Assembly: GCA_951802425.1 (NCBI GenBank)
Contig: OX637801.1
Span: 682,001 to 746,000 of the forward strand
DNA length: 64,000 nt
Direction of reading: 5' to 3'
From: Clavaria fumosa
Taxonomy: Eukaryota > Basidiomycota > Agaricomycetes > Agaricales > Clavariaceae
The notes under the pieces are model-generated. The model had not been told where the DNA came from and made no database searches. It saw nothing but the letters and a program-made list of their open reading frames with translations. A program made the position numbers and the translations under genes. This document shows positions 27,401 through 64,000 of this stretch, piece after piece (the stretch's first letter is position 1; the number at the start of each line of letters is the position of its first letter).

Positions 27401-27630
27401 ACTTTCTCAAGGAATTGTTCCTTAAATGCCTCAGCACACCGAGGCAGGTAATAATTATAGACTTGCTTTTCGTCTATTAAGGGTATGCGGTGGTTCACCG
27501 CCCGAAACGCCGGCGGCCTGGGGGGAACTCCCCCAAAGAGCTCAGTGTACTGGTTAAACCAGTACTCACGCCTGCCTTCGAGGTAGGCGTCGTCTATCTT
27601 TACAGAGGCGTCAGCCTCTCCCCCCTTCCA
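24439..27630 (-). pseudogene. pol: Gypsy-1 pol: RT, RNase H, integrase, chromodomain
   Basis: Reading from about 27630 downward: RT (NHRIPLIDEKQVYNYYLP, SKIDLSDAYEQV, catalytic YLDD in VHVYLDDVFVFSK), connection and RNase H (CDASVSGVGAMYGQ, FSYKTWDWEALAI, DHKALGFFRNQTRL, GESNKVVDGLSR). Then integrase with the H-H-C-C zinc motif (EAHAVLGHMGS, FCSSCQTSK) and D-D-E residues (GMDFVGPF, SDHDPRF, DGATERSIRSV), and a chromodomain-like C-terminus (EEWLVDAIIGHRWEGRHLECEVRW). One in-frame TGA at 26362-26364 falls in RNase H; the decayed copy has CAG there, and a CGA to TGA CpG change is the likely route. Otherwise the frame is open and all catalytic residues are kept. Confidence 0.93.
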
Positions 27631-27792
27631 GGGCTCACCCGCATCCCGGGGGCCTGAGTGTAGTCAGCTCTTTCAAGCTTCCTTCCTCGGCGCATTCTTA
27701 GCCGTTATACGGACGCGTAATGCTTCCGTCTCCTCACTGGGCGACATCGCCTGAAGGGTTTTCCCCTTCCCTTCACCAATCCGGATTGCCCG

Positions 27793-28322
27793 TCAGTGCA
27801 CATCCAGTATCACACAGCGGTCATACATGAACGCCGTTCCGACTATGATATCATAGCGATCGATGTTCGCTATATCAAAATACTGGTCCTCCACCAGTAT
27901 TCCTCCCAAATCTACCGCTATGCGGCATCCGCGTGTGATCGTCGATCGGCTGCCAATACAGCCGAGTTGGATAGGAACTGGATTATCCAGTTGGAAGGTT
28001 GGTACCTTCGTCACCCGGACAAAGTCCGGGCTCATCAGGTCCGGGGTACTTCCAGAATCAAAAAGCGTATACGCTTTTACACCGTTCATGGTGATGTAGG
28101 CCACGAGGCATTGCCTAGCCTCCCTTGTCACTACCGGGCATGATCCCGTCCGCTCCTTCCGGACGTGTGCCCGAAACGGCCTGTCGTCGACATGGCCGAG
28201 GCGTACTTCTGCCGTGTAGAGGACCTCGTCCTCTTCCAATTCCCAGATTCCAGCAACCTGGTCGCTTTCTGCCTCCTCCTCGAGCTCTTCAAGGATGAAG
28301 AGCTCGTCTGAATCGTACTGGT
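27793..28322 (-). CDS. Gypsy-1 aspartic protease
   Basis: The frame encodes VLYTAEVRLGHVDDRPFRAHV, then AYTLFDSGSTPDLMSPDFV with the catalytic Asp-Ser-Gly, and FDIANIDRYDIIVGTAFM near the C-terminus, a retropepsin fold signature. A TGA follows ILDVH; the decayed copy has a stop at the same place, so the protease end may be genuine or reached by recoding. Upstream the frame should join gag, but the solo LTR at 28329-29246 separates them. The protease would process Gag-Pol. Confidence 0.8.
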
Positions 28323-28328
28323 CCCCGC

Positions 28329-29246
28329 TGTAAGGACCATATGCGATCTAAACACGGAAACATGACAGATACCGACTATCCGGATGTTTTGCGATCCAAA
28401 GAAATTACGTGCGATACGAACCGATAACGATCCGACACCGTCCGATAACCACCGATAGTATCCGATACATGTCCGATGTCGGACACTTCGGTCTTCAATC
28501 CCCCGTGACGATCACAGCCCACCGCTCTCACACACCGCCCACGCCTCTCTATTTCACCTCTCCAGCACGGTCAGCGCTCGACATACACACTATTCCATTC
28601 CCATTCCTTTATTTCATATACCATGCTGTAAATTTCATATTATGGTCCCTTTCAACCATTCAATCGTTTAAACGTTTCAAACCCTTTGCAGTACCTTGTC
28701 CATTGTTCTTAGTACCCCTTTGCTGTACCAGCCCCACTTTCCTTCAGTTTATGAGCGGTCCGGACATTTGCTAGTTATCGGACATTTCATTCCTCCGAGC
28801 TACTCATTTCCCTTGTGATATAACTCCTTCATGTAACCCTTCACGCGACATGGCGCTGTTCCATGTGTTTTCCGGACATTTCCGTACATTCCAATTTGCT
28901 GTACTTACAGAACTGTACTTAAGTACACTCCGGACCTCTCTGAAATACAGCTTTCTGAACCCCTTCTCTCTGTTAGAAACCTCACCTAAGCTCACCCGTC
29001 GTCGCAACCTTCGATCCGCTGGCCTCCGTCGTTGCCGGCCCTTCGTCTTATCGCACCATCCTTATCGGATTTTATCGGACACATAGCAGAATATCCCGGA
29101 CACCGTATATTTCTATTTCTCACATATTTTGAATTCATACTCCACATCCTCAAGGGTGTTTGGTGAATCTCTAACGCCTTACAGGAACCCCTGAAAGACT
29201 TGACTGTAATCAAGCAGTTGCAGCAAGAACCGTAATACGCACTACA
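28329..29246. mobile_element. Solo LTR (918 bp) inserted between gag and protease of Gypsy-1
   Basis: The decayed relatives read straight across this point (GGTTGTGGGGACCAG at 8050-8064), while the intact element has 918 extra bases beginning TGTAAGGACC and ending CGCACTACA. The flanks share CCGC (28325-28328 and 29247-29250), suggesting a 4-bp duplication. The insert is CpG-rich with repeated CCGATA words and has no long ORF. It supplies the false end (VVRITVLAATA) to the gag frame. It is the youngest layer of the nest. Confidence 0.88.
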
Positions 29247-29250
29247 CCGC

Positions 29251-31258
29251 GACCAGCGTAGTCGTCTTCCGTGACTTCCTCCGGTAGGGCTTCACCCTCC
29301 GGCTCCACGCTTTCAACCGCAGGTGTTTCCGGCGGTTCCTCAGGCTCCGACTTGCCTGGCTCCTCTTGTAAGGCATAGTTCCTTACATTTCCCCTAAAAG
29401 CCTCTGGCTTTCGCTGTGACTGAGGGCACACATTCGCGTAGTGCCCTGCTTTCCCGCACATATAGCATGTTAGAGGAGCTTTCCGCTTCTCTCCGCCTCG
29501 TACCCCAATCTTGGGCACCGCCTTAGGCGGTTCTAGCCTGGGTTTGCTTCCTCCGGTTTGGACGCGCTCGTCCCACGCGCGATCGATCCGCGGGGGAACA
29601 GGTTCCCCTGGCCTCCGGTCTGTGTGCGGCCGATACAGCCGCAGTCTCACAAACCTCTGCCCCACAGGCACTCTGCCTGTAGGCGGGTTTCCTTTGGGAC
29701 CTGCCTGGTTCCCTACCGAAGGCACTGCCCTCCGCTGCTGGAGGTAGTGGAGGGTCGCTTCCACTTGGCGACTAGCGTCGATAATATCCTCAACCGAGGA
29801 TAACTCGACACTAATCACTCGAGTTTTGAAGATGGCCTCCACCATCTCGTTAGGCAGTCCGTTAAGGAACTGCCTTTTCATCATACTGGCGTCAGGCGGG
29901 GTGAGCATTCTCTCTGCCGCCTGGGCCAATTCGTTCCAGAATCCCAAGGCGCCCTTCGCCTTTGTAAACTTCACCTAATAGAAGGCATCCACTGCCTTCT
30001 GGGCCATTACCTCAGTCAGGAACTGCTTAAACATAGCGGTTATCAATTCCTCGAAGGTCCACCTTCGAGGAGCATGGGATAGACCTGTTACTTCTTGGGT
30101 ATACCAAGTAGCGGCTATTCCGCTTAAGCGTGACCCCGCTAGCATAACGCGTTGGTGCTCCAACTGCGGGCCGACTACTCTATAGAAGTAGAAGTAATTA
30201 AGGAGGCCATCAAGCCACCTTTCCCAGACGACGAGGTCGTCTCGTCTGTCATAAAGCTCAGGGGGGTCAATCTTAATCCCCCTAATCTCAGCTATTGCCT
30301 CAGGCAATAGCGAGGTTTTATCTTGTATCATCACAAGGTAGCGATGTAATACATCGCTCTGGTAGTTTGTAGAACTCGGGGACACCTCCCGAGTAATCTC
30401 CTGCTCCTTCTGGGGTGGTTCCATCCATCCGAATGGGCCCATCCGGCCCATTGGCTCTCGCTGACCCAGCTGTGGGTAGCGCGACATAAGCCGCGGCTCC
30501 AGCCCCGCTGTTTCTCGAGGGCTGCCACCCTCCATTCCTGGTTCGCCAGGGGTTTGAGAACCGTCCGCGCAGTTCTCCCTTCGCCACCCTTCCTCGCGGT
30601 TGGCTGGCGCCTGACTCGGCGGGGCAGGCCCCCCTTCGGGTTCCAACGAATCACGGCGTTGCCGCCGTAAGGGAGCCGCTAGTGCGGTTCCCTGCTCATC
30701 TAGCGAGTCCAACACCCGCCTAATGTGGGTAGCCTCCTCACTTAGCCGTTGCCGAATAGTGGCTTGGCGATTTTTCATCGCCCTTACAAGAGCCTCAAAC
30801 TCTTCATCCTGGCGGGAAAGTTCCGCCTGAATGTCCGAGAGTCTCTCGGCTACAGCGTTAGCTCGTGCTATCGCTGTGGGCTCATTTCCACTATTGGAGG
30901 GAGCCCGCGAGCTTGACCGCTCTCGCGGCCACCTCTCACGGGTTTCTAAGGGCTCTCTGCCCTTTCCTTTTGAAGGTCCGGCCTTCTCGAACGATGGCGC
31001 CTCGCCAGTGACTTGGCACATTGTGGCGCCCTCCTCATGGTGATTGCCACGTGTCAACAGCGTTTCGGACCTAACGCTGTCATCAGGGGCCGGTGACGCC
31101 ACGTCAGCCCTTAGCGGGGGTTCACCGCTGGGCTCGACAGAGGGTCCTATTCCCTCTGGCTGCGTGACGCCTGTGTCGCACAGAGGTCCTACCAAGGGAG
31201 GAGTTTCTCCTCCCTTCCTGTTGTGCTTCTTCTGTGCGGCTATACGGGTGTAACCCAT
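29251..31258 (-). pseudogene. gag: Gypsy-1 gag with one stop codon
   Basis: The frame starts at MGYTRIAAQKKHNRKGG; an earlier ATG at 31333 lies within the LTR. It has a charged N-terminal half with a helical stretch (AVAERLSDIQAELSRQDEEFEAL), then the capsid-like Gag core (ELYDRRDDLVVWERWLDGL, AATWYTQEVTGLS, FEELITAMFKQFLTEVMAQKAV). After a TAG at 29975-29977, where relatives have CAG, the frame continues with FTKAKGALGFWNELAQAAE and a CCHC knuckle, CYMCGKAGHYANVC, near 29427-29471. Gag packages the retrotransposon RNA. One C to T change accounts for the stop. Confidence 0.9.
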
Positions 31259-31296
31259 TTCTAGCCACACTCGTTGTGTTGAAGGTTCAAAAAAGT

Positions 31297-31523
31297 TGTA
31301 ATACTTTCTATCCCTCAAAAGAACTGGACTCAACTGTATATTGAGTATGGTAGTTCTATGTAGAGGGATCTACCCTCTCTGTACAGTTGCGACGTGATAT
31401 ATATATAGGCGAGCGGCCCTCTAGGGGCTGCTGAGGTAAGCATAGCCTAAGCGGCTATGCTAGTAGACTATTATGATATGTATATTATGTAATAAAAGAA
31501 TAGAAAAGGCCTATAGCCTTACA
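31297..31523 (-). repeat. Gypsy-1 5' LTR (227 bp)
   Basis: Partner of 21626-21853. The sequence just inside it on the minus strand begins ACTTTTTTGAACC and shows no TGG-type tRNA primer-binding site, so the priming mechanism is unclear. Confidence 0.93.
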
Positions 31524-42955: not shown

Positions 42956-43363
42956 GTAGATCCAACCAGGCCCCAAGGTGATCCAACCATGCCCTGGGTC
43001 AATCCAACCTAACCACAGGGTGATCCAACCATGCCCTGGGTCAATCCAACCATGCCTCAGGGTGATCCAACCAGGCCCTGGGTTAATCCAACCATGCCCC
43101 AAGTAGATCCAACCATGCTCTGAGTAGATCCAACCATGCCTCAGGGTGAACCAACCAGGCCCCAAGTAGATCCAACCAGGCCCTGGGTTAATCCAACCAT
43201 GCCCCAAGTAGATCCAACCATGCCCCAAGTAGATCCAACCAGGCCCTGGGTTAATCCAACCATGCCCTAGGTCAATCCAACCATGCTCTGAGTAGATCCA
43301 ACCATGCCTCAGGGTGAACCAACCAGGCCCCAAGTAGATCCAACCAGGCCCGACCCTCATGCA
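42956..43363. repeat. 21-bp minisatellite, about 19 units
   Basis: Units of about 21 bp built on GATCCAACCATGCCCCAAGTA run for about 408 bp. On the minus strand they form a continuous frame of 7-residue repeats (HGWIYLG-like). They replace the Gypsy-2 RT thumb and everything downstream: the RT frame runs into the array just after YLDDILIYSDNTMVHEG. Confidence 0.93.
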
Positions 43364-44495
43364 CCATCGTGTTGTCGGAATAAATTAAAATATCATCAAG
43401 ATAGACAACCACGAAGGAGTTGACCATGTTGGCGAAGATGTCGTTCATGAACCGCTGGAACATTGCCAGAGCATTGGTTAGCCCAAATGGCATCACCAAG
43501 TACTCAAAGGCACTGTATTGGGTGCGGAAGGCAGTTTTCCACTTGTCGCCGTCCTTGATGCGGATGTTGTTGTATCCGGCATGGAGGTTGATTTTTGAGT
43601 AGATCCATGCACCCCATAAGCAGTCGAGCATATTGTTTATTAGTGGGATTGGGTAGCGGTTTTTGATCATCACCCTGTTTAAACCTCGGTAGTCAACACA
43701 AAGACAGAGTGAACTGTCCTTCTTTTTTGCAAATACAATGGGGGCTCCCATGGGGGATTCAGAAGGGTGGATAAATCCCTTCTGGAGCATGTCATCAATA
43801 TAGTCATGCAAAACCTTTAATTCCAGCTCAGACATGTTATACAGCAGACCCCAAGGGGCTTTGGTGTCTGGTTCAAGTTGTATCGCATGATTGTAAGTTC
43901 GGTGGGGTGGAAGGGTGCAGGCCTCTTCCTTGGAGAAGACATTGGTAAAGTCTGCGTATTGAGGTGGTAGGTTTGCCCTTGCTTCTGGGGGTTCAGAATT
44001 GATTAGTGCAGCATTAGCTTGGAGTGAGTTTTCAGGTGCAGGGAAAAAATGATAAACAGCATGCAGAATTATATCCTCACCCACTAGATGGTTGGTGAAG
44101 TGGGCGGGATCCAAAATTCGAATTTCGATAGGTGCTGGTTTGGGCAACAGGGCAGCAGAATTTTCCTGTGACCCTGTTCTGTGTAAATTCGTGTTGGGTA
44201 AAGTTTTATCAGCAGCAACAACAGTGGGAAAAGGTGGCAAAGGCTCCTCGGGTAGGTTTGCCCAGTCCCATGTGGTGGAGTTCAAAGTTCCCGACATAGC
44301 AGAATTGCTATCAGGCGCGGTGGGGTTCAACTCTGACAGTGGATTTCCAGTGGTCCCCGTGGGTAGTCCTGGGCTCAGTGTTGACCAGTCCTTAGGAGCG
44401 AGCTCCTTCAGGACCCTGAGTTCATCAGTGGTTGGGTCATGAGACCCTGCAGGCCTTGCTGCATCGGTGGCCACAGTGGGCAAGGGCTTCATCAT
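43364..44495 (-). pseudogene. Gypsy-2 reverse transcriptase, truncated
   Basis: A frame of 407 residues from 44495 contains the RT of a Ty3/Gypsy element: PPHRTYNHAIQLEPDTKAPWG, HPSESPMGAPIVFAKKKDSSL, CVDYRGLN, YPIPLINNML, FEYLVMPFGLTNA, VVVYLDDILIYS. All polymerase motifs including YLDD are intact. After the palm it is cut and continues into the minisatellite, so RNase H and integrase are missing. Confidence 0.9.
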
Positions 44496-44540
44496 CAGCG
44501 GTCAGGTATTGGAATTGCGGAATTGTATCGAGAGGGTTGG

Positions 44541-44951
44541 TCAATCGATGTCTGGGTTGTGTTTCCAAAGCCATGACAGTCCGAGTATGACCTTCACATC
44601 TGAATGGAGTTGGGTAACATAGAAATGTTCAGTGTGCATTGTGCTGTCCTCAAAGCAGAATTGTTGGTCGGTCACTTGGGTGATCAGTCCTGCGATGGAC
44701 CCATCAAATAGCCTAAGTTGTATAGGGCGGGTTAGTGTTGAATGGAATTTCAAAGGTGTAAAGTTGGGCAAAACGAAACATTCGGTAGCTCCACAATCTA
44801 CAAGTGTGGGTACAGGGGTATTGCTAATTTGCAGAATAACAATGGAAATCAAAAAGGCAGCAGAAGAAATAGATGACAGAACCATGTATAAGGGGAGTTC
44901 ATCCATGGTACAGGTATCAGTATTGGTATCTATGGCAATATCGCAACTCAA
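44541..44951 (-). pseudogene. Gypsy-2 protease
   Basis: Encodes VPTLVDCGATECFVLPNFTPLKF, an Asp-Cys-Gly-Ala variant of the retropepsin active site, then VILGLSWLWKHNPDID. It lies between gag and RT as expected and is in a separate frame from RT. The intact empty site of Gypsy-1 (AACTTGTCGCTGG) lies just upstream at about 44991-45003. Confidence 0.8.
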
Positions 44952-44959
44952 GAATCTCC

Positions 44960-46041
44960 CTACATGCCTTGAGATGCTGGAGCATTTCCCAACTTGTCGC
45001 TGGCCAAGGGCTCAGCTGCGGTCATGGTAAATGTGAGGGTGGCACGGGCAGCAGACTTGCAGTTAGCGGGGATCAACAGGCATGTATTTGAGAAATGCCC
45101 TTGACCCATGCAATATAAGCAAAGTCCAGCGGCCCGGTGGAGAATGGTCTGCAAGGTGTGGATTTCTCCATCTTTCCCTCCTTCGGCTTCGTTACAGGGG
45201 TTGAGGCAGGTTTGGCCAGAGCGGATGTCATGATGGGGTTGGTTACTGGAGTGGGCGCAGGGCGGTTTGAGGATTGGTTGTTGACGCGTTTCGCATTGCG
45301 GTCTTTCATCGGGTTTGACAAATTTCCGCACGATGAGTCGCCGGGTCGCTTTCTGTATTGGACGGATGTCGGAAAGCGGCCTTGTTCTTCCTCACATTGC
45401 CAGTACCGCTGCTCGAAGGCCAAAGCTTGTTGACAGAGTCCAGTGAACTCCTGCTCTCGACTCGTGTATTGAAACTGGTCTTTGATGCAGTTGGTGAGCC
45501 CCTGGTAAAAGGCCTTGGCGAGCACGGTGTCATTGTATCCAGTGTAGGGTGCGTGCGAATTGAAGGTGACAATGTATTCTGTGATGCGGGAATTGTTGGG
45601 CATCTTCAAATTATGCAACACGCTCTTCGAAGTCATATGTGGGGGGGGGTTTCTGAATACCAGAAATAATTCCATGGTGAAGTTATCCCAATTGTCCAAC
45701 ATTGTGGGGGGCGGTTGCTGGACAAGGTATGGCATCCACCAGGTATTCGCTTGATCTCGGAGATACGACGTGGTGAATAGAACATGATCCCGATCAGTAG
45801 CGAATTTCCGTGGCTTCCCCAGAAACCATGTAATGCACTGCAAGATGAACATTGTTAGCCATGCTGGGTCCTTACCTGTGAAGACATCGGGCTCCTTGAG
45901 TTTGGGGCCGTCGTCTCCAGGTGCCAGGTAGTAGATGTAGTATGGCAGACCGGTGGGCGGATTTCTGATGGGTACCACAGGAGGTACCGCCAGTGGAATT
46001 CCTTGTGGAATCCCTGGAATCTCGAAAGGTCGTGGCAGCAA
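44960..46041 (-). pseudogene. Gypsy-2 gag
   Basis: The 322-residue frame (46041-45073) is a capsid-type Gag (EPDVFTGKDPAWLTMFILQCITWFLG, RDQANTWW, FNSHAPYTGYNDTVLAKAFYQGL, QFQYTSREQEFTGL). The knuckle CLYCMGQGHFSNTC is in a shifted frame (44960-45331). The same shift exists in the left copy, so it is older than the duplication or is a frameshift site. Full-length sense sequence otherwise. Confidence 0.88.
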
Positions 46042-48681: not shown

Positions 48682-49275
48682 TTGCTACCTCAACCCTGTC
48701 AACCCCCGGTTGGCCTAGCTTTCTCCCTACCCCCTGCCCGTCGTGTGCAACAGAATGACAAGAGAGTCATCCTGGCATACCCAACGCGTAACGAAGACAT
48801 AATGGACGAGTGGCTCATCACGGTCCTAGATTTTGGTGAGGACGAATATTGGGCCCGATACTTTGACACCCGCGTAAGAACAGAGTTCTACCCGGACACC
48901 CCGATGGAATCCGACGTATCGGAGATGGAAGCTGCGGTACTGAGACCGTGAGAGCTACGCCCTTTCGAACTGTGGATTATTGAGGAGGAGAGACGACTTG
49001 CCCCCTATTTCGCAAGGTTGTACACACAGGAACAGAGTCGACGAGAAGAGAGATTGAGAGAGGCACTGAGAGCTGCCCTACCAGATTCCGCGACCTCAGG
49101 CATGAGATCGCCCGTACACAGCACTATTGACATTAACCTCGACGACCTTGAGGACTACGTGAACAGCGACAATGACGAGTCGATGAACGAACCCATGCAC
49201 ATTTCCGTGGCAATCCAAACAGAGCTTAGCCTCACACCCCCTTCAGCACACCCACCCCCTATCCAAAAGGCCTAG
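48682..49275 (+). pseudogene. Gag-like ORF of the 48103 element
   Basis: Two frames in the same phase, 48682-48951 and 48952-49275, are separated by one TGA at 48949-48951, again consistent with CGA to TGA. The protein is acidic and charged (MDEWLITVLDFGEDEYWARYFDTR, FELWIIEEERRLAPYFARLYTQEQSRREERLREAL), and its position after an LTR suggests Gag, but no knuckle or capsid motif was recognised. No pol follows; the element is truncated or non-autonomous. Confidence 0.55.
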
Positions 49276-50455
49276 CCGATTTTGACTGATGCCCTTTTTA
49301 TGGGCCCAGCCGATCGTCGGCCGAGATATAGCTTTATAGGCTTGGCCGATCAACTTGATATACCAAAATCCTGCCAGGCATACAGGGATCCCATGGTAAT
49401 GATGATACCCTTTCAAAAGGGCTGGCCGATACCCATTTTAGGAACCAGTGTAGAGGGTCTGAAGCACCCTATTCAAACATTTCTCTCACTTACATGACAA
49501 ATTAGATCAAAAAGCTGGGGATAAAGCATATGCACAAGATTAGGAAGCAAAGATCAGATGTGCTATTTGATAGATATGTAAATTACAAGGTCATCTGCAT
49601 CATTTGAGACTCCTTATCATCTGAGACTCCTCCATGACAACTTAACATAGTTGGGTGAGATGAAAACAAATATGCCTTCCAATAGGTCTTCAAAGGGTAG
49701 AAGCAAATGTACCAATCGAATATGCAATGGAGCCATTATAAACTAGAGTGAAATGTGGTTGTCAACTGAGTCAGGATATTCTTTGGAAAAGGATGGGCCT
49801 TAATATCCTTTCTGAAGAGTATTCAAATCCACTTTGAATACGTGTTCTAAAGGAGAATGTATTGTTATTGTTCAAATATTCTTGCAATGTAGAAGTTGTG
49901 CATGTGAGTCTGTTATCACACCTTGTGATTATATCATTCTGTGGCTGTGCCCGGAATCCCGGGTGTGACAGTCACACTGTGACCAACTCTGCATAAGAGT
50001 ATTCAAATCCACTTTGAATATGTGTTCTAAAGAAGAGGAGAATGTATTAGAATTGTTCAGGATGAGCCTTTGTACATAAAAATGATCCATTGTGGTCTAG
50101 AATTAAATTGAGGAAGTGATGCAAAGCAGTATATAATCTGATATTCCTTATAAAGAGACAAACCATTATAAAAGGACCCACATATGTGGTTCAATGGGGC
50201 ACACTCCACCTTCAACAATCTAGTGGGAATAATGAAGGAGGATATTATTATCAGATATTGCTTATAAAGGTATGAATCTTCTGAACAACATGATGCATCT
50301 AATAACAAGACTCAAATATGCTTTCTGATAGGCACAGGTTCTTCAATGATAGGCACCACAAAAGGACAGATTGCAAAGAATTATTAGGACCTAGTGAGAC
50401 ATCATGCAGATTGATATGCACTACAAATGACTTTCACCAGTGTCAAGGATGATTT
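49276..50455. other. Gene-free stretch with GGCCGAT-type words and dispersed repeats
   Basis: Four GGCC(T/A)NGCCGAT-like words lie at about 49269, 49306, 49339 and 49421. A dispersed repeat with CCCGGGTGTGACAGTCACACTGTGACC occurs at 49941-49984, and its trailing GAGTATTCAAATCCACTTTGAATA word occurs twice (49843 and 49997). No coding region was recognised. Confidence 0.6.
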
Positions 50456-52566
50456 TCAGTGCTTCACCCTTGGTCGCAGTACCCACTTCTTGGCATCCAT
50501 GGAAGCCCTCTCTCTAGCCCTGGTCCTATATTGCTTAGACCTCTCCTCCTCCTCTTCATCATGGTATACCCTTTTCCTCTTGGGCAGGCTGGGCCCTGCC
50601 TCCTTGTGGATCTGAACTGCCATATGAGCAACAAGGCCATGAACATCTCTATGCACACCCACATCATCCCACATCCCTTGTTCTCCTGTCCAAAATTCCA
50701 TTATCTGTATTGTATTTATGCTGGACTGGAAAATTCTCACCTGGATGTTGCCTGTCATGGTCACCTTCTAACCCATTCCCCTCAATACCATCACCCCTTC
50801 GCATATCCACCTGCTTGCTCAGACAGGATTCTTCTGCATCACTATCAGGGGGAACAGAAGCCTCAACCCTATCATCATTATCCCCATCATAGATGCACCC
50901 TGAATCACTGTCTGACTCATCTGAGCCAATGTCCTCACTATGTGCATTTCAAATGTGCATTGATGATGATGATGATGATGATGATAATGATGATATGAGA
51001 ACACTCACTCAGTACTGATATGGACAGGCTGGACCTCTCGTTCTTTCCCCTTCTTGAGGGAGAGCCTCTTCACCTCTTTGTCAGATGACAATGATGGCTC
51101 TTGTTCAGGTTGCTGGTGATAGTTGACTAGATGCCTTGATGGCTTCCCTCTCTGGTGCTGTGGGAGAACATATTGAAACCGTAATATTTTCTGGCCCAAA
51201 GTCTGTCGGTGATGCAGGAAATCACAGAGCCTTCTGACATCGACATATTGCATTTTTGAAGGCTCGCGAATTTGCATTCCCTCTGGAAGGTATTCATGAG
51301 GAATAAACTTGTGTGGAGCATCAGCTATCAGTTGCCAAGGGAAAGCAACCTTCTTGTTTTTTGTTGTATTGCCTACATGTTGGAAGTAACTTGTCAGACT
51401 TGGACTATTGAGCAAGACAGACTCACGATAAGTGATAGTAAAAAATGACCACAAAATTTCTTTGAGTTGTGCGAGTGGTAGGTTGAGTTCCAAAGGAAGA
51501 ATGGGCCATCCCTCATGATCTGTTAGCAAATCCCATGGCACACTAATATCTCTTCCTTTCCTTGATAGCATCTCCTCTTCATCAACAAAAGGCTTCCTTT
51601 GTAACTCATCTGAAATCCTGTCAGTACTTCCCCAACCTTGGCTTCACATCATTTTCTCACCATTCCATGTCTCAGCCAAATATTTATCCCACTCCTCCCA
51701 CACCTCACAACCAACTTTGTGAAATTGTACCTTGAACCCACTAGTCACAGGTCCAGGGGTCTGAATCCTGGAGCATGTATACAGAGAATTAATCTGATGG
51801 ACCAGTGGGCATGCAATTGAGACTCACTTTGCCTTCTTTATATTCCCTTTCTCATCTTGCCAGCCAGTCAACATAAATAATTCAACACCCATCTGCTCCT
51901 TTGCAAAACGGGCAAACTTCAGGGCCTCATGCATAAATTTGCGAGAAGCCAATCTCCAAGCAACATTTCAGCCATTCTACTGGTTGAGAAAGGTAAATTA
52001 AAATACTCACTCTCTCTGCACAGGAACTGGGACAGGCTCCCTATTCCATTTCTCTACCAACCCCATGTATTTCTGATGCTCCTCTTGTGTTAGCTCTTGA
52101 CAAATCTCAGTCCTAGCACGACGATATGAGCTGAGGAACTGGACTGATCCCCTCTCAGCATTTGACAACTCCTGGGCCCTGGCATTGATGATCCCCTTCT
52201 TGCACTGCTCCACAACACGCTGGAGGGTCCACCTCTGTCGTTTGCTGAACTGAAGGCCTTGGTTGCCATCATCTTCTGAACCAGAAGACTCCTCCCCTCC
52301 ACTGACAGCCCTGCGGTTATTGTGGAGCCAATTGCGAATTTTCTATGAACAGACAAAAATCAAATCAACTCAGGAGACACATAAAATGCATAAGTTACGG
52401 TGCTAAGATCCTCTGGGACACATTTGTTGTCCTGCTCAGCTGAATCCTTGATTTTCGCTTTGATTTGCTTGACAATTTCGAGGCGGTCTTTTGAGTTTGC
52501 CTGTCTGTAGGCTACAAGACTTTCTGTGAGTATTTTGGTATACTCTGGGGTCGTCCACCTTGTCAT
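50456..52566 (-). CDS. Unrecognised acidic multi-exon gene next to the KDZ locus
   Basis: ATG at 52566 (MTRWTTPEYTKIL). Exons can be joined in frame through GT-AG introns: 52399-52566, 52011-52342, 51828-51953, then segments within 51770-51650 and 51610-51005, and an acidic end (EDIGSDESDSDSG) reaching a stop at 50456. Conserved-looking parts are SRKFMHEALKFARFAKEQMGVELFMLTGWQDEKGNIKKAK, QTPGPVTSGFKVQFHKVGCEVWEEW and EMLSRKGRDISVPWDLLTDHEGWPILPL. A basic patch (KGKEREV, LPKRKRVYHDEEEEE) suggests a nuclear protein. An ATC/GAT microsatellite (50959-50992) falls in the last predicted intron. The gene is divergent from the Ulp1-like gene, about 1 kb away. I recognise no domain; it is open and apparently intact. 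The last exons are the least certain. Confidence 0.65.
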
Positions 52567-52647
52567 TTTCTTTGCTAGCCTAACTGATAAAGCAGTGGCG
52601 TTGTTGGGAAGCAAGAAGTGGTGTGTCACGTGAGTCACTTGTCACGC

Positions 52648-53370
52648 GTTGTGACTGTGACTTGCTGAGGCTGTGCCCGGGACCCCGGGTGTGACAGTTA
52701 CACTGTGACCGTAACTCTCCATAACAATATGCAAAATGTCCTTTGAATATGTGAGCCTTGTGTATTTTTTTAATGTACGAAATTCCACAGCAGTCACATC
52801 TTACAGCCAGAGTGATGACGAAGGTTCGGCTAACGGTCTATCTGAAAGAGGACTAGTACGTTTAGTTTAAACTCCTATTGGTTACGTGCTTGCCAGTGCA
52901 GTGGCCTCAGGGCCCTGAGGATTTTTCGTACCGCCGTATCTGGAGCTTCACATCTTGGTTACGTGCTTGCCAGCGCAGCGGCCTCAGGGCCCTGAGGATT
53001 TTTCATACCGCCGTATCTGGAGCTTCACGTCTCTCGCGTGAACTCCAGGTATGTGCTATCCTTGTGATCTTTATTACACTACTGAATACACTACGTCTCT
53101 CGCGTGAACTCCAGTCCTCTCGATCCGAAGCCTTCTCTGCATTATATATATATGATATTGCTTCTGAAGTGAAGCAATGGCACATTTTGATGCAAAATAA
53201 CATAGCTTTGCTCATGTGAATTGTGTGTTGGGAGATGTGACTGTGACTTGTTGTGGCTATGCCCGGGATTACGCGTGTGACTCACACTGTGACCATAGCT
53301 TGGCATCAGAATATCCAAATGCTCTTTGAATATGTGTGTTCTGGGTAAGAGGAGAATGTATTGCTATTAT
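52648..53370. repeat. Intergenic region with duplicated modules
   Basis: Two copies of a CCCGGG...TGTGACAG/TCACACTGTGACC repeat lie at about 52648-52770 and 53235-53370, related to 49941 onward. Between them a 79-bp unit is tandemly duplicated (52879-52957 and 52958-53036), each with the palindrome CCTCAGGGCCCTGAGG, and ACGTCTCTCGCGTGAACTCCAG occurs twice (53027 and 53092). The region separates two divergent genes, so it may hold promoter or transposon-end sequence. Confidence 0.75.
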
Positions 53371-55474: not shown

Positions 55475-55570
55475 TTGCATATGTGAGTTTTTCAGTCAGC
55501 CCAATCACATGACACAACACTTTGCATATGTGAGTTTTTCAGTCAGCCCAATCACATGACACAACACTTT
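55475..55570. repeat. 47-bp tandem duplication upstream of the KDZ start
   Basis: The unit CATATGTGAGTTTTTCAGTCAGCCC... ending in CACAACACTTTG occurs twice in tandem, ending 20 bp before the transposase ATG at 55590. It may sit in the promoter or 5' leader. Confidence 0.85.
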
Positions 55571-55589
55571 GTCCACTGCAACCTCCGCC

Positions 55590-58500
55590 ATGCCAATCAC
55601 TAAACGAAAAGAACATGCCCAGGAGGTTGAATTTGTTTCAATTTACAATAAACGACTGCGGAAATCCTTTTTGAAGTCTCGAAATGTCTACAAACAACCT
55701 GCTCAACCATACAACGTTCTACATAGCAAGCTTTGGTCTGGGACCTGCTCCAATGATTCCCTACTCCCCCAAACACCCCATAGCGAGGCCAAACAGACTC
55801 TGCCCTTTACATTTAATGCAGATGGTGACCCTGAGTGCATACTGGATTCTGATGCCCAAAGGATTTCACATAAGAAAAAGCAAGGAAAGGTGAGGACTCC
55901 AAGTTGTTCTCTGTATGCTGAAGTATCTGAAAATGTACACATTCAGACTCAGAATGAATTCCTTGAGGATTGGCTTCCTTTAAGAACAGCTTACCTGAGG
56001 GAAATCTTGGAATTAGAAGCTCCACCCCCTTCCAAAATTTGTCAGGTCTGCAATCAGAACAACTTCAAGTTTCGATGCCGTGATTGTTTCTATCGGCCTG
56101 CAACTTGCTCCTCATGCTGCGCCAAATCTCACATCAATATCCCATTCCATTCCATTGACGTTTGGAATGGAGTTTGTTTCCTGCCATCTGATCTCCTACA
56201 TGTTGGACTGGCGATTCACTTAGGGCATCAAGGCTCACCGTGTCCAGAATTCAAAGAGGAAGGGTACAGGGAGAAGGATCAATGGGAGCAAGATACCAGA
56301 AATGAACCTAATTTGGATAGGCCAGGTGCAAGTCTGCTTCTAGTTGTACACTCAAATGGAGTGTGCCGACGGAGCATCTATTACTGCCAATGCTCAAATG
56401 CTCCTTCCCACCATATACAGCTGCTTCAACACCGTCTGTTTCCTGCCAGCTATACGAAACCTCAAACAGTGTTCACATTTGAAGTCCTTGGTCACTTCCA
56501 TATTGAGGCTATGGAGTGTAAAACCTCAGCAGGCGCCTTTTACTCCAAACTAAAGAGATTTACCTCTAATGCTTTCCCAGACACTGTACCAGTTAGTATC
56601 CTCCTCTCCTTTTCCCTCCATTTGTATTGACAAGCTGCTGGCATTAGGATCGATACCGTGAACTAATGAGAGTATCTCGTCAATGGCGAGACTTGACAAA
56701 TAGAAAACGATTTGGTTTTGGGCACGACTTGGATAGGAAAACAGGAAATGGGGACCTAGCACTGTTTTGTCCTGCTTGCCCTCAACCTGGCATTAATCTT
56801 CCTAACAACTGGCAAAGTCAACCAGATCAGTAAGTCTTGTTTTCATTGAATGCATGTGAACCCTGATAAAGAAATGCCAGATGGCTTTTCCGCAGATCCC
56901 TGGTTGTTGATGGAAATTTCTCAGCAGAACACTTGAAAATGCGAAGAGCAGAGAAAGATGTTAGGTTAGCAAATGGAGAGGCATATATTGTAGAGGAGGT
57001 GAATTATCAACATCACCTCTCTGAGGGCTTAGAGATTCGAGATGTAGGTGTCTAACTTGGACTGGTCACCTGAGATTCACTCCTACAACAGAAATCAAAA
57101 TGCTCAAATCACAGGGCTATAAGCCAGTCAAATGCTCACTCAAGTCACCTGGAAGCCACGGGAATAGGGGCATGTGCCTGCTCACGGCATGGGTGTTTCG
57201 TGCCACATTCTGTGGTTGATTTCCAGAAGGGCGAGCGGTGAGCTGAAAATGTCTGTATATTTTAATTTGGTTGCAAATACTTGTTGCTTTTTCTTCCAGT
57301 CACATCAACATTGACTATGCAATTTGCCAAGCTATCAAATATAGGACAGAAGGGATGACAGAGACTTTAGTCATCTATGATATCTGTTGTCAGTGGATTC
57401 GCAATTTCGACAAGAGGGTCCAGGGGAGCCAGTATCTGTCTGTGCACCCTTCAACAACAATCATACCTGCAGTGGGTAAATTTCACTTGGGGGCACACAT
57501 TCGTTCCTGTTTCCCACTGTTCTCCTTGAACTTTGTTCATGGTGCTGGCCAACAAGATGGAGAGATTTTGGAGACTCTGTGGTCAAACCTGAACAAGGTC
57601 TCCAGCAGCATACGGGCCATGAGCAAGGCACATCGGCACGAAATATTAGACGACTACATGCGAGATTCAAACTGGAAGAAAACAGTGGGTATTGGTGGGT
57701 ATCAAAATTTTCTAAGCGAATTTGGGATAACTGAATATGCAATCTAGTGAAGGCCCTCCTGGCGAAGTACAATGCTGCAACAGAAGGTCTTCGACAAACC
57801 AAGATTGCATTCAATGATTTGAATGAAGGGATTGGATCAGAAGCAAGAGAAGAATGGATGAATTTAGAGCAGATTGCTCTGCAAAATCGAGGGGAAGCCC
57901 TCAAAATATACGATATACAACTGGAAAAGAGTGAGTTGATATTCCTCACTTCATCACTAGAGACAGAAATCTGAAAATTTCAATATGAAGCACCAACTCT
58001 TGCAGATATCAGGCTAACTCTCTCAGCTAGGGAAAAAGAAACTGGAGTACCTTCGGGGATTACATCATTCCTGACTCAAGGCATGGATCTGGAACATATT
58101 CAGTAAGTGACATCCAAGATGCTAAGCCTACACACATGCCAATGAGCCTCCAGATGTTCAATTGACCTAACCCGGAAGAGGAGACTCACAGCAGCTCAGA
58201 AGCAAAGCATTATTGATAAACAGAATGCACTTCAATCCAAAATTGAAAATTTCAACCAACGAGTCTATACTGTTCTGGGAGATTTCGAGTGGGATGACCA
58301 ACACCAGGAGACCATGCCAGAAGACACTGGACCTAGAGAAGAAACACAGGATGATCCTCAAGATGGTGACGTGGAAGACCTGGACATGGACGAGCAGAAT
58401 TTCATACAGAACAGGCTTTGGATGCCTTCTACGTTTGGCCACGACTTCTGCTTGAAAAATGGGTGGGAAAAATTTGTGGATCAAGAAATACAGCTGCGGG

Positions 58501-59303: not shown

Positions 59304-60479
59304 CTAGGTCAACAATTGCATGTACGTATTTTGAGTTGGGTAAGTTGGTCGTGGTATCTGTAGACGGTCATGAACAGAATCTTTCATGAAATGAGCAATG
59401 CACAATCGTTCGCCACCCTCCCAATCCATCACTTCATGCAGAAAAACTTTACCCGCAAATACAAGGACAGTTCCAGGATTGTAGGCAAATTGACCACCAA
59501 GTTCCTGGAGTGTCATGTATGCCTGCTTGTGAGTTCCAGCACTAACCAAAAGATCGTAGTGAGCCAGGCAGCCTCCCTTGTCGCGATGTGCAGGAGTCTT
59601 CCTGTTCACGATGACTTCCATTGCCGTAAAGATTGAGGGCCAAAGCTGCACATTCTTGTATGTTTTTGCCATTGCCACCCCAGATTGCACTTGGTCAATG
59701 GCTGAGCTCCCAAAGTCATATTGTTCTGGTGCGACCAAGGCCATAATTGAATTGCACAGCTTCTCTGCATGTGCGATTCCTCGAATGAAGGAGGAACCAT
59801 ATGCAGTCTGCAAGCTGGTCGAAGCATGCAGTTTATCACTGAGCTGTTGACATTGAGACAGTAAAACAAGGTAGTTATGTGACAGCATTACCTGTTGCTG
59901 GCCTTGCATAAACCAGCCAGGAGAGAAGGACTTGATTCCGGCACCAAAACGACCTCCGCCTTCAGGTTCGACAAATCCCGTAGTACGCCCAGCATTACTT
60001 GGCAAGTCTCTGTCCAGATGCTTGCTAATGTGCTCACACCCTCTGTTGTACTGCTCCTGTAAATTGGTTAGAAAATATGGTTCAAATTTGATTGCCTTAT
60101 CTCACCACTCTAGCACTAGAAAGAATTCCAGGCAGAGCCCACAGCAAGATACGACCGTGCTTATCAATTATTGTGCAGGGTTCCTCTTGAACACCGAGGT
60201 CTTGAGGCTGCTTGAAATACTTGCTGAATTTCACCAAGGCTGCATCGAAATTATTGCTGCGTTTGGCTATGAGATTGATATGTTTCACACTGTCTGCAAA
60301 CCGATCTATGTCCCATTCCGTTTGAACTGAATGGTCAAAGTGTTCAGCTGATTGTTGCAAGTCATTTAAGCTAATGCACTTGGGTTGAAGAGGGCATAGG
60401 CCACAGTTAGAACTACACGTTGTAGTTCTTCTTGAGTCACAGGTTGGTCGTCAGCATTACTCTCGTTGCTGGAATCCAT
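59304..60479 (-). CDS. TET/JBP-family 2-oxoglutarate/Fe(II) dioxygenase
   Basis: The protein, about 350 residues, contains NRKTPAHRDKGG with the His-x-Asp iron ligands (codons near 59579-59587). Then TLQELGGQFAYNPGTVLVFAGKVFLHEV gives the distal His, and GGERLCIAHFMKDSVHDRL contains the 2-oxoglutarate-binding Arg. This arrangement is the TET/JBP signature; the family oxidises 5-methylcytosine or thymine in DNA. Exons: start MDSSNESNADDQ at 60479, a proposed 32-base intron near 60375, exon ending about 60098, a 49-base intron (GTGAGATAAG to TTTACAG), and another intron at about 59838-59889 that happens to be open in frame. The 32-base intron is unusually short and is the weakest join. The gene converges on the KDZ gene, ends 112 bp from it and appears intact. 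Confidence 0.88.
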
Positions 60480-60867
60480 GGCAACTCTCAATTCCTCAAG
60501 TTCGCCCCAAATTTTCAACCTTCCTTCAATTTTAGCTGGCTTAACAGGATTAAAAATTGATGACTTGCCTTGTCTTGAGTGGCTTTTGCATTTTATGAGT
60601 TACGTGCTTGCGTATCGTAGTGCGTAAGAGGCTCCACATGGTGCCTTTCAAAGTAGATGGCCTTGGGTGGGCATTAGACATCAACTCAGCTCAGTTAGAC
60701 GATACATACGCATCACAAGGAGCATAATTGGTCCTCTTGTTTGAGCCAGATAAGTCAGTCTCTTGATGCTTCCTTTTGGCCATTGGATGAGCTGAATTCG
60801 CAAATCTATGTTAGGGGGTTTGACAGTCAACAAGGTCACATGACTCCTTTTTTTTCTATTCTTCTTT
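60480..60867. other. Intergenic region upstream of the TET/JBP gene
   Basis: No coding signal was recognised. A TTACGTGCTTGCG word near 60600 recalls the duplicated module at 52880-53036. Presumably it includes the promoter of the minus-strand dioxygenase. Confidence 0.5.
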
Positions 60868-61325
60868 TGAATCAGCATTTATATACTGCAACATTGGCAA
60901 AGACAAAGATGCGGTTGTACGTATGGTGCATATTTATGAGATAAAGGATGAATTGGGGACAGAGGTATGTGGCATGGGTTTGTAGGTTATATTGCCGTCA
61001 TTTAGTGTGGGTCAGGCGGGTTTGTTGGGTATGATGCAGTATCGAAGAGGTTAAGGCTGGGTAGTTCTAGTGGGATAGGGGGTTTGAGCGGCTCTCCGGT
61101 TGAGGTGAATACTCCGGAGATTCGTAAGAATTTCGCGATGGCGAGTAGTCCTTTGGTACCGCTGAGCGGGATTGGCGGAGAGTGGTCGCGATGCACTTCC
61201 GATAGTATGTGTCGGTGTTCGTCGTATGCTCGGCAATTATGGAATATATGGTCTATGTATCTCGTCGCTGGAGTTGTTGGGATCGTGTCTCCGCAGAGGC
61301 ATTCGGGCTCGTGAGGTATTTTCAT
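60868..61325 (-). pseudogene. LINE 3' fragment: end of ORF2 plus 3' UTR
   Basis: The minus strand encodes PHEPECLCGDTIPTTPATRYIDHIFHNCRAYDEHRHIL, the C-terminal C-x-C...H...C motif found after the RT/RNase H of many fungal non-LTR retrotransposons. It ends with a stop at 61002 and is followed by about 134 bp of 3' UTR. It is 5'-truncated, as is usual for LINE copies. Confidence 0.75.
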
Positions 61326-61671: not shown

Positions 61672-61829
61672 GTTGAATCAGCATTTATATACTGCAACAT
61701 TGGCAAAGACAAAGACACGGTTGTATGTATGGTACGTATTTATGAGATAAAGGATGAATTGGGGACAGAGGTATGTGGCATGGGTTTGTAGGTTATATTG
61801 CCATCATTTAGTGTGGGTCAGGCGGTTAG
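61672..61829 (-). mobile_element. Second LINE copy, 3' UTR only
   Basis: About 150 bp repeats 60868-61018 with a few differences (AGATGCGG against AGACACGG), then diverges after GTCAGGCGG. It is a more severely 5'-truncated insertion of the same LINE family, in the same orientation. Confidence 0.75.
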
Positions 61830-61876: not shown

Positions 61877-63454
61877 CTACTGTTGATTTATAATTAGCCA
61901 GCGCCCTCCAAAAATTTCGCCTCCCAGCCAAACTTTCTCCTCAGGTGCATTGAAGATAAGTTTGTTGGTGCACTGCGGATTTCGACAAGCAAATATTCTC
62001 GCCCCAGCATTACCAGTAGATGAGACCCAGGAGCGGATGCAGCCACAAGCCTTGCACTGCACTGGGAGCTGATTTCCCCAAGGGCGAAGCTCAGGGTGAA
62101 CCCACATATAACGAGCACCACGTATTTGTCCCTCTCTTGCCTGGAGATGGACGATGTCGGTGTGGCGACAAATTGCTGATGTCGCAGGTAGGAGCCTCCG
62201 GAGACAGTCCTCCAGAGGGAATCCCTCCACCAGAACTTGCTGGGCATAGCCAACTACAAACCCTGCCGTAAGGCAAGGTTGCAGCTCAGCGGCTGTGAAT
62301 GCGATGACATCCGAAATCAAAAGGCTGGAAATTTTGATTAATTAGCAAATTGAGAGTGCTAGTTATTGTCTTACCGCTTGGTTGCCTCTGCTAGCTCTGA
62401 ATAACTATGGAAGTTCTTGACTAATGTTCCACAGGACATCATCCACAATGTGACCTCTGCCCCTTTGAGGAATGTCAAGTGGGCAGGTGGGAGGAGGACG
62501 TCGAGAAACTAAGGCTTCAAATTAGCTGGAGGCAGATGCATTGTAAACAAACTCACGGGTTTGACCTGGGTGCATAACCCAGGTGAAAGAAAGAGGTCGC
62601 CAGTGTCATCATGAGAATGATTCGTAATAAAAATTATGACACGGGGATGTTTATTTCTGTGAAAATGGTTAGTACAATATGATATGAAACAGAAAGCTCA
62701 TACTGAATCTTATGCACCAAGCTCTTCATGTACTCTGCGTGCAAATTGATAAGGATGTCATTGGCAAGATCGAACACAACCTCTTCATACTGCAACGCCT
62801 CATCTCCAAGATACGACCGCATATAGTCGGCGAGAAGTCTTGCCGGCGTTCCAGCATGATCCATTCCTTTGAGGAGAAAGTGCAAGACAAGTAGTCCCTT
62901 GTTGCTGACACGAGAATTTGCAGTCATTTGAAAATTGCCTACTACCTTGAGAGGTTGTGCAAACGCTGGTCGCAATCTTGCCGTGTCGGGCTTCCCGTCG
63001 ATGATGTCGAGGCCCTTTGTCAAATAGAACCCCTACAATGCAAAGATAAGAGAACGAAACAGAATAAGTAAATCAATGCTCACATAATATGGGCTGAGGG
63101 TGGGTCCTTTGAAAGACCGAGCATGGCAGGTGAGACACATGAACTTGAGGTGTTCGGTGTCGATCGAAGTTGGGACAGTGAGGCATTTTGTGCATAGCGC
63201 CCGAGCACAGTAATCACAGACAAAAAGAAAACCACCATTAAGGCACATGTAGCAGAACTGTGGAAAAAGTTTATTGTTTTGTACCAGTGCTCAGAGCAAA
63301 GGCGAATACTCACATTTTCACCCTCACTAGCAAATTCTGGTCTAACCAGCGCTGTAGAAGTAGCTGTCGTTCTTGTGGATACAGCTGACCCTGGGACAAT
63401 GCGGAGAGCGCGACCGCCGGTACTTCTCTGTGCTGTTTGTTTGTTTCGAGCCAT
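61877..63454 (-). CDS. Histone H3-tail mimic fused to PHD/ADD-like finger and possible caspase-like domain
   Basis: Six exons read on the minus strand join in frame to 441 residues: 63314-63454, 63084-63257, 62704-63032, 62557-62656, 62375-62508 and 61877-62324. All five introns are GT-AG, 47-56 bases. Residues 2-18 are ARNKQTAQRSTGGRALR, position by position the H3 tail with Lys4, Gln5, Thr6, Ser10, Thr11, Gly12, Gly13 and Arg17 kept, but Lys9 and Lys14 replaced by Arg and Arg8 by Gln. Residues 49-91 form an all-Cys PHD/ADD pattern (C49-x2-C-x8-C-x2-C-x4-C-x2-C-x15-C-x2-C91). Residues 218-275 contain RVIIFITNHSHDDTGDLF and VTLWMMSCG, reminiscent of a caspase/CHAT His-Cys dyad (H228 or H230, C274). 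A zinc ribbon (C383, C386, C406, C411) ends the protein. The H3 match and the exon structure are direct observations; the protease call is tentative. No close known family could be named. Confidence 0.85.
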
Positions 63455-64000
63455 TGCGAGGGGGATAAGCACTAAGAGAGAGTGAGGGTCATGCATATAT
63501 AATGTTTTCCAGATCACCTTGACTACAACAATACAAGACTACATCTCTTGAATAGGGGAGGTTCAGTCGACAGTGGTACCACACAACGATTAGACAGAGG
63601 GGAGAACAAGGTGTGAAGCAATAAGTTCAGACAAGAAGGAAGTTTCTATAACTACCAGGGTAGGCAAGTACAATGATTGGACAAAGGGGGAACAAGACAT
63701 GTTCAGACCAGGAAAGACTACTGTATGTGTAGTTACAAAGGCACAACAAGAATATATCCAAGGCTGGGACAAAGCATCAAGAGAGCGTGATGAGTGTTGA
63801 GAAGGGCTAATGCTCAAACGTTCTCTCGTTTACTTGTGTCTATAATAATTCTCATTCACTTGTTTATAGTTGTCCCTTTGTGTCTACCTGCTCTCCTCTC
63901 CTTGTATTTACCTACTGGTGCCGTCGTGCCCTCTTGGCATTCGTGCTATGGCCCTGTAGCGGATACTTGCGGAGACAAGACCTTGTGCATGCCTGCCACT
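63455..64000. other. Upstream region of the H3-mimic gene; nothing else recognised
   Basis: This should contain the promoter of the minus-strand gene. No clear TATA box, repeat or other gene was identified. Similar words recur (GACAGAGGGGAGAACAAG near 63592 and GGACAAAGGGGGAACAAG near 63677, each near a TCAGAC word), suggesting a degenerate direct repeat of about 85 bp. Confidence 0.5.

Follow-up and report, generated by a model that had tools for sequence, protein, structure and literature searches.

Gene structure and host element

The window analyzed here, a stretch of 64,000 nucleotides of the Clavaria fumosa genome, carries on its minus strand a gene of six exons that opens with an ATG at position 63454 and encodes a protein of 441 residues starting with MARNKQTAQRSTGGRALR. 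After the Met, 12 of 17 residues are those of histone H3 residues 1-17, without a gap, confirming the H3-tail imitation, colinear from residue 1, that the initial annotation described. Likewise, splicing out five GT-AG introns (56, 51, 47, 48, and 50 nt) leaves exactly the 441 residues that it had given for the protein. The exon opened by the ATG reads MARNKQTAQRSTGGRALRIVPG... and belongs to the following set of features.

63398..63454, minus strand: H3-tail mimic, codons 1-19 (MARNKQTAQRSTGGRALRI, 57 bases), read down from 63454; its 23-nt start is identical at 18 genome sites
63314..63454, minus strand: exon 1, the tail and a poorly conserved linker (pN 0.52 in the linker versus 0.10 in the tail)
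63084..63257, minus strand: exon 2, including a PHD-like zinc finger, C49..H92 (about 63123-63254), from the splicing model and profile matches
62704..63032, minus strand: exon 3, beginning of the C-terminal domain (no recognized fold), from the splicing model
62557..62656, minus strand: exon 4, with ..IIFITNHSHDD.., from the splicing model
62375..62508, minus strand: exon 5, with ..LWMMSCG.., from the splicing model
61877..62324, minus strand: exon 6, with the CxxC pairs of a possible zinc ribbon and the stop codon (61877-61879), from the ORF list and the splicing model
63494..63496, minus strand: in-frame upstream ATG of the window lineage, an alternative start that is not favored (ORF 63080..63517)
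59304..60005, minus strand: TET/JBP dioxygenase ORF of the same element (Pfam Tet_JBP, E 1.2e-18)
55569..56630, plus strand: transposase part with a CxC2 cysteine cluster (Pfam CxC2, E 2.5e-27)
57271..57747, plus strand: KDZ transposase core (Pfam KDZ, E 9.8e-31)
49235..52809, no strand: left end of the element, starting CACCCCCTTCAG, with the left-hand arm of a long inverted repeat; six copies agree from 49235 into the element and diverge outside it

In the window copy nothing forces the start at 63454, given a further in-frame ATG 14 codons upstream (63496-63494). It is forced in eight other lineages of the family (B, E, G, H, I, J, K, and N), each with an upstream in-frame stop and no ATG between. 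The earlier placement of the tail at the very N-terminus, behind a removable Met, is supported; as is generally known, an initiator Met before Ala or Pro is cleaved, leaving a free N-terminus as in H3. We estimated a chance expectation of about 2e-5 for such N-termini, using assumed amino-acid frequencies and an estimated number of ATGs (about 1.5 million), and the 18 genome sites of the 23-nt start compare with none for the reversed pattern. Chance or a start-codon artifact as the source of the tail is ruled out by the pattern counts, the chance estimate, and the upstream stops in the eight other lineages. An oddity of one copy is ruled out too, given 18 copies of the window lineage (A) and a tail in 11 lineages. 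Behind the tail there is no histone fold: the four loci that a full-length H3 query matched in the genome all lie outside the family.

The mimic gene is an accessory gene of multicopy KDZ-type DNA transposons, a context that the initial annotation had not included. The aligned part of the left inverted-repeat arm of the window copy (49904-52809) is 98.8-99.8% identical to its mirror at 71459-74454, beyond the window, and the left end reads CACCCC in six copies. From the left end at 49235 and a similarity to another copy that extends to at least 73987, the element is longer than 24.7 kb. The 18 A copies have long flanks in common, and five of them retain an unbroken 441-codon frame. The same three genes (CxC2/KDZ transposase, TET/JBP, and mimic) recur in a lineage B copy on contig C5. 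Across the genome, at least 62 of 109 family loci have a KDZ match at most 10 kb away (150 of the 185 KDZ matches being those listed), compared to a mean of 6.6 and a maximum of 13 for random placement; the other 47 lie more than 10 kb from any KDZ match among the matches listed. Similarly, 53 of the 109 are within 10 kb of a TET match (random mean 3.4, maximum 10), and 46 of 64 TET matches have a family locus at most 10 kb away. Random placement was drawn 200 times, with the size of contig C12 assumed. Further, when 16 A copies (of L009-L026) are compared, 271 of the 346 C>T/G>A changes fall at CpG, which holds 13% of C. This excess is likely a footprint of methyl-CpG deamination and would reflect methylation pressure from the host.

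Several additional features of the region were recorded. Downstream of the mimic gene, most A copies have a 153-bp direct repeat (60867-61019 and 61673-61825, 96% identical). The same ORFs occupy both arms of the inverted repeat (window 50459-51571 and L068:2265-3377). Beyond the window, at about 69,961-70,257 (L027:5507-5803), the same element carries an ORF with ..SMPHIDDVGLAVVSTVMSGSKWWVV.. that by eye resembles a JmjC-type dioxygenase and has no Pfam match. Ty3/gypsy-like ORFs (reverse transcriptase, integrase, and gag-like), also recognized by eye, lie at 24439-31333 and 43272-46041 of the window.

The element resembles the TET+ Kyakuja transposons, KDZ elements of Agaricomycetes, in its KDZ transposase with a CxC cluster, its TET/JBP gene, and a left end starting 5'-CA. 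Kyakuja is also characterized by 5'-CA..TG-3' ends and a 7-bp target duplication, of which the left end (CACCCC) was observed. The element differs in its inverted-repeat arms of about 3 kb and in the H3-mimic gene; no TIRs are reported for Kyakuja (PMC12730594). Because of the inverted arms, we file the element as KDZ type, not as Kyakuja. The available portion of that paper (Kojima, 2025) describes TET transposons as carrying no other protein that would modify DNA further and names no H3-like or PHD gene, and the accessible text of a paper on KDZ elements of a yeast leaves PHD unmentioned (PMC12810828). No publication describing an H3 tail within a KDZ transposon turned up in the literature searched, though the founding KDZ/TET paper (2014) may already mention the gene. 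Searches of a protein database returned no homologue from outside the genome at E 0.001 (one sequence) or 0.01 (five-sequence alignment), among the best 7994 candidates each, nor did viral or prokaryote contigs contain one. As the last two collections are viral and prokaryotic, and the protein database may include few fungi, such negatives are no evidence of absence.

The tail across the family

Protein searches of this one genome (48.8 Mb, 17 contigs) with the window protein and lineage E, merged by hand, gave a census of at least 109 family loci, with lineage F additional. We read the N-termini of 13 lineages. The expectation that homologues keep the tail holds for 11 of them and fails in lineages C (six loci read) and D (four loci read, and a fifth, L046, without an N-terminal match). 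The tails read as follows.

Lineage A: ARNKQTAQRSTGGRALR
Lineage A' (decayed): AQNKQMAKRSTGGRALR
Lineage B: ARTKQTPKKSTGGRALR
Lineage F (decayed): ARSKQTAKRSTGGQAVR
Lineage E: ARTKQTAKTSTGSPSVR
Lineage H: ARTKQNPKKTTSGHSIR
Lineage J: ARTTQTPKKTTDSRSVR
Lineage K: ARTKQSAKRSSGAPAMR
Lineage N: PRTKQSPSRSTGAPCVR
Lineage I: PRTKQSASRSTGAPCVR
Lineage G: PRMKQSASRSTGAPCVR

Since A and A', H and J, and N, I, and G are close relatives, there are about seven distinct tail-bearing lineages. After the Met, their consensus is A/P-R-T-K-Q-S/T-A/P..., with Ala (8/11) or Pro (3/11) at position 1. Among the 11 tails, Q5 and R17 are invariant, R2, K4, and T11 are each kept in 10, S10 and G12 in nine, and T3 in seven (it is Asn in the window copy). 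Position 13 is A or S in six tails, and position 15 matches H3 in five. R8, K14, and P16 of H3 appear in none, and no tail has a Lys at position 18; other lysines are present at position 8 (7/11) and position 9 (3/11). The selective changes proposed from the window copy thus stand in part: K4 is retained and K14 is always lost, but the loss of K9 seen in that copy is not general, as the position holds Lys in three lineages, Arg in seven, and Thr in one.

A strict version of the consensus, M[AP]RxKQ[ST], has 65 matches in the genome compared to two for the reversed pattern, and 57 of the 65 open a family locus, defined as lying at most 2.5 kb upstream on the same strand (0.3% of the genome falls in stretches of this kind). 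The eight other matches comprise two true H3 genes, lineage F, and five without a detected family locus. These five are at C4:1084463, C7:474928, C7:3352013, C10:194932, and C10:909692; the reversed control predicts two. The strict tail is thus present in 57 of the 109 detected loci, a count that the known tails of A', H, I, and J escape and in which most other loci are unread. Thirteen pairs of family loci lie at most 10 kb apart, each joining a second gene to one of C or D type (a type assigned in some cases from identity alone); one gene carries the strict tail in eight of these pairs, and both genes in none. Three D elements (C7:1331300-1338700, C8:2324350-2331600, and C9:2153600-2160900) contain tail-to-tail paralogs, a tail-less D gene and a tail-bearing E gene, with a TET match between. 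Not every family protein needs the tail, as the existence of multicopy tail-less lineages shows. As judged from these sequences, H3-tail mimicry is nonetheless a well-supported trait of the family.

The comparison of lineages A and B, a single sequence pair with 18 tail codons, gave 14 of 18 identical residues in the tail, with a pN of 0.10 and a pS of 0.64 (nine synonymous changes on 14.2 sites), 5 of 24 in the linker (pN 0.52), 29 of 48 in the PHD (pN 0.20), and 218 of 344 in residues 97-441 (pN 0.24), synonymous sites being saturated outside the tail. With the lowest pN in the tail and a high one in the linker, the tail forms an island of constraint beside a free linker. Such constraint has to be weighed against a historical origin, in which the first exon of an H3 gene was captured and has been retained merely for its generic basic character, nuclear import being one conceivable use. 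Both host H3 genes that we read (L072 and L073) have an intron inside codon 13, so that H3 exon 1 encodes little beyond the best-imitated part and exon capture is possible; six of the 11 lineages leave the H3 sequence directly after position 12. A generic basic tail does not account for the exact non-basic residues that are held (Q5, S10, T11, and G12), the number of synonymous changes that separate A from B rules out mere recency, and matches to H3 continue past the exon boundary at positions 15 (5/11) and 17 (11/11). We regard a mere remnant as very improbable.

The finger behind the tail

Beyond the linker, the family proteins carry a zinc finger that the initial annotation had not noted and that resembles PHD fingers of the H3-reading type. 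A profile built from five family sequences matched the fingers of CHD4 (E 3.2e-9), PHF21A (2.8e-6), PHF12 (4.8e-5), AIRE (2.4e-4), and ATRX (3.3e-3); it also met rabphilin and FYVE fingers (about 1e-3), which are zinc fingers that do not read H3, and its matches to H3 were not significant alone (E from 0.05). When restricted to the fingers of five tail-bearing lineages, the profile matched CHD4 at 3.1e-9 and ATRX at 1.9e-8. Single sequences led to the same PHD group: the window copy alone had 34 PDB matches at E ≤0.1, including SP140 (1.4e-4), CHD4 (1.8e-4), PHF21A, and AIRE, the lineage E finger had 11 at this threshold, and the first 93 residues of B had 158 at a cut-off of 10. Against the PHD-H3 complex 2kft, these 93 residues of B matched the AIRE chain (2kft_A, E 7e-4) and the H3 peptide (2kft_B, E 0.11), the latter not significant alone. 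The gathering score of the Pfam PHD family was not reached (15.2 bits versus 24 for lineage B, and no match for lineage A).

The family shares with the PHD/ADD fingers of CHD4, PHF21A, AIRE, and ATRX the zinc-ligand spacing and a GGxLxxCDxC strand (profile E 3e-9 to 1e-4). A CxxC-x8-C spacing with GG is kept in the tail-bearing fingers of A, B, E, H, I, J, and G. Those of K and N start CxxC-xNGG, as far as they were read, F lacks one Cys, and C and D have a spacing of x9 without GG. The fifth zinc ligand of the family finger is a Cys, as in the ADD type; in most PHD fingers it is a His. Most of the matched PHD fingers are readers of H3 unmodified at K4, and PHD fingers of this class require a free H3 N-terminus. 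Collectively, the profile matches and ligand spacing suggest a PHD-like finger that would belong with the readers of the unmodified H3 N-terminus. We know of no H3 tail in the same chain as the fingers of CHD4, PHF21A, AIRE, or ATRX.

The fingers of the tail-less lineages are less recognizable. The C finger alone had no PDB match at E ≤0.1 and the D finger alone had one, a FYVE finger. A combined C and D profile gave five matches, the TAF3 PHD finger (0.007) and weaker ones that included a FYVE and a LIM protein; because of the TAF3 match, these fingers are not wholly unlike PHD fingers. It may just be that lineages C and D are in decay; their weaker likeness to PHD fingers would then follow as well.

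The type of finger also bears on whether the tail serves as a substrate. H3 enzymes, for example a K4 methyltransferase, could modify the tail, and the modified tail would then recruit K4me readers to the transposon. Lys4 and Gln5, the core of K4-enzyme substrates, are indeed kept in 10 and 11 of the 11 lineages, respectively. However, R2, T11, and R17 are as strongly kept as K4, and the finger is nearer to K4me0 than to K4me3 readers, going by the generally known reader classes. A role as a substrate mimic seems improbable to us.

The C-terminal domain had no recognized fold in searches of Pfam and PDB sequences or by hhalign. Its His/Cys pattern (..TNHSHDD.. and ..MMSCG..) had led to the guess of a CHAT/caspase-like protease. 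This candidate was not supported and was dropped: no CHAT/caspase match was found in Pfam and no such match in the PDB, and hhalign against five CHAT domains of the same genome gave a probability of 0.2%. Lineages A, B, and E keep the pattern; C has lost the two aligned residues and D the aligned Cys. Single-exon structure models of exons 6 and 2 were too weak to use (mean pLDDT of 34.5 and 60).

Possible roles of the tail and its putative reader

With a PHD-like finger behind it, the tail may be a ligand for the reader in its own protein as well as for those of the host. We give about an even chance to the explanation that the transposon has united an H3 tail and a matching PHD-like reader in one protein, in which the tail is the ligand of the protein's own finger and perhaps also a decoy for host readers, working beside the TET enzyme against silencing. 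We infer the following mechanism. Removal of the Met would expose the H3-like N-terminus, followed by the variable linker, the PHD-like finger, and the C-terminal domain. In cis, the tail could mask its own finger until it is displaced by a partner or by genuine H3 tails; in trans, the proteins could assemble head to tail on the chromatin of the element. The finger may bring the protein, along with the TET/transposase machinery of the element, to chromatin with unmodified H3K4, where the recruited machinery would counter the methylation-based silencing of the host. In addition, the tail, being exposed, could titrate H3 readers of the host.

A precedent for inhibition in cis is BAZ2B, whose histone-mimicking linker lowers H3 binding by its own PHD finger, according to the available part of the report (PMC5663869). 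There, as in the transposon protein, an H3-like stretch and a PHD finger share one chain, and the inhibition is intramolecular; the BAZ2B mimic is an internal, Lys-rich linker, whereas that of the family is N-terminal and colinear with the H3 tail (PMC5663869, same part). The same order of parts as in the family is found in an engineered fusion of H3, a linker, and the BRD1 PHD finger (2l43), which is man-made and was matched weakly by the profile (E 0.091). Short imitations of the H3 N-terminus of the ART/VRT type, made for a PHD finger, are described for PAF15 and DPPA3/Stella in the accessible text of PMC11187062, and PAF15 and UHRF1 are treated in that of PMC9943068. Compared to these, the imitation in the family is longer, extending over as many as 17 residues of a transposon protein, and is followed by that protein's own PHD-like finger.

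The strongest rival, which we consider possible though less likely than not, is that the tail acts purely in trans, as a free H3-like N-terminus that occupies the PHD or other H3 readers of host silencing or methylation maintenance, beside the TET enzyme of the element. As a corollary, a tail without K14 (and K18), the H3 lysines generally known to be ubiquitylated for DNMT1 recruitment, could not carry the ubiquitin marks that recruit this enzyme, and K14 is in fact absent from all 11 lineages and a Lys never found at position 18. In the portions available to us, DPPA3 (through VRT) and PAF15 (through 1-VRT-3) bind the site of the UHRF1 PHD finger for H3 1-ART-3, and mouse DPPA3 competes with H3 (PMC11187062); mammals also have a TET-controlled, DPPA3-driven pathway of demethylation (PMC7686362, likewise in part). 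The element, with its TET gene inside, pairs an H3 mimic with TET as the DPPA3-type systems do, and the host genome has one SRA match as well as DNMT-like matches. Yet none of the seven host PHD matches lies near the SRA match, so that a UHRF1-like PHD target was not seen in the genome by an exon-wise search, which could miss one; other tail lysines are present (K8 in 7/11 lineages, K9 in 3/11); and an H3-type finger of its own would be superfluous in a pure decoy. The main reason to prefer a tail that is bound by the protein's own finger is that, in the lineages read, the tail and a recognizable finger are present or absent together, for which general decay of C and D is the alternative account.

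Histone mimicry was previously known from single host proteins and viruses. More broadly, a large class of fungal DNA transposons may have evolved ligand and reader in one protein, pairing a counterfeit H3 tail with the PHD finger cognate to it; the pair would act as a switch responding to chromatin state or as a self-assembling scaffold and, with TET, would resist silencing by the host. We consider this broader proposal plausible, at somewhat less than an even chance. If true, mobile elements counterfeit the very substrate of the silencing machinery. The family would then provide a set of naturally occurring H3-tail variants (K4 retained, R8 and K14 absent from every lineage read) from which to learn which positions matter to readers, and it would add a second anti-silencing candidate to the transposons that carry TET.
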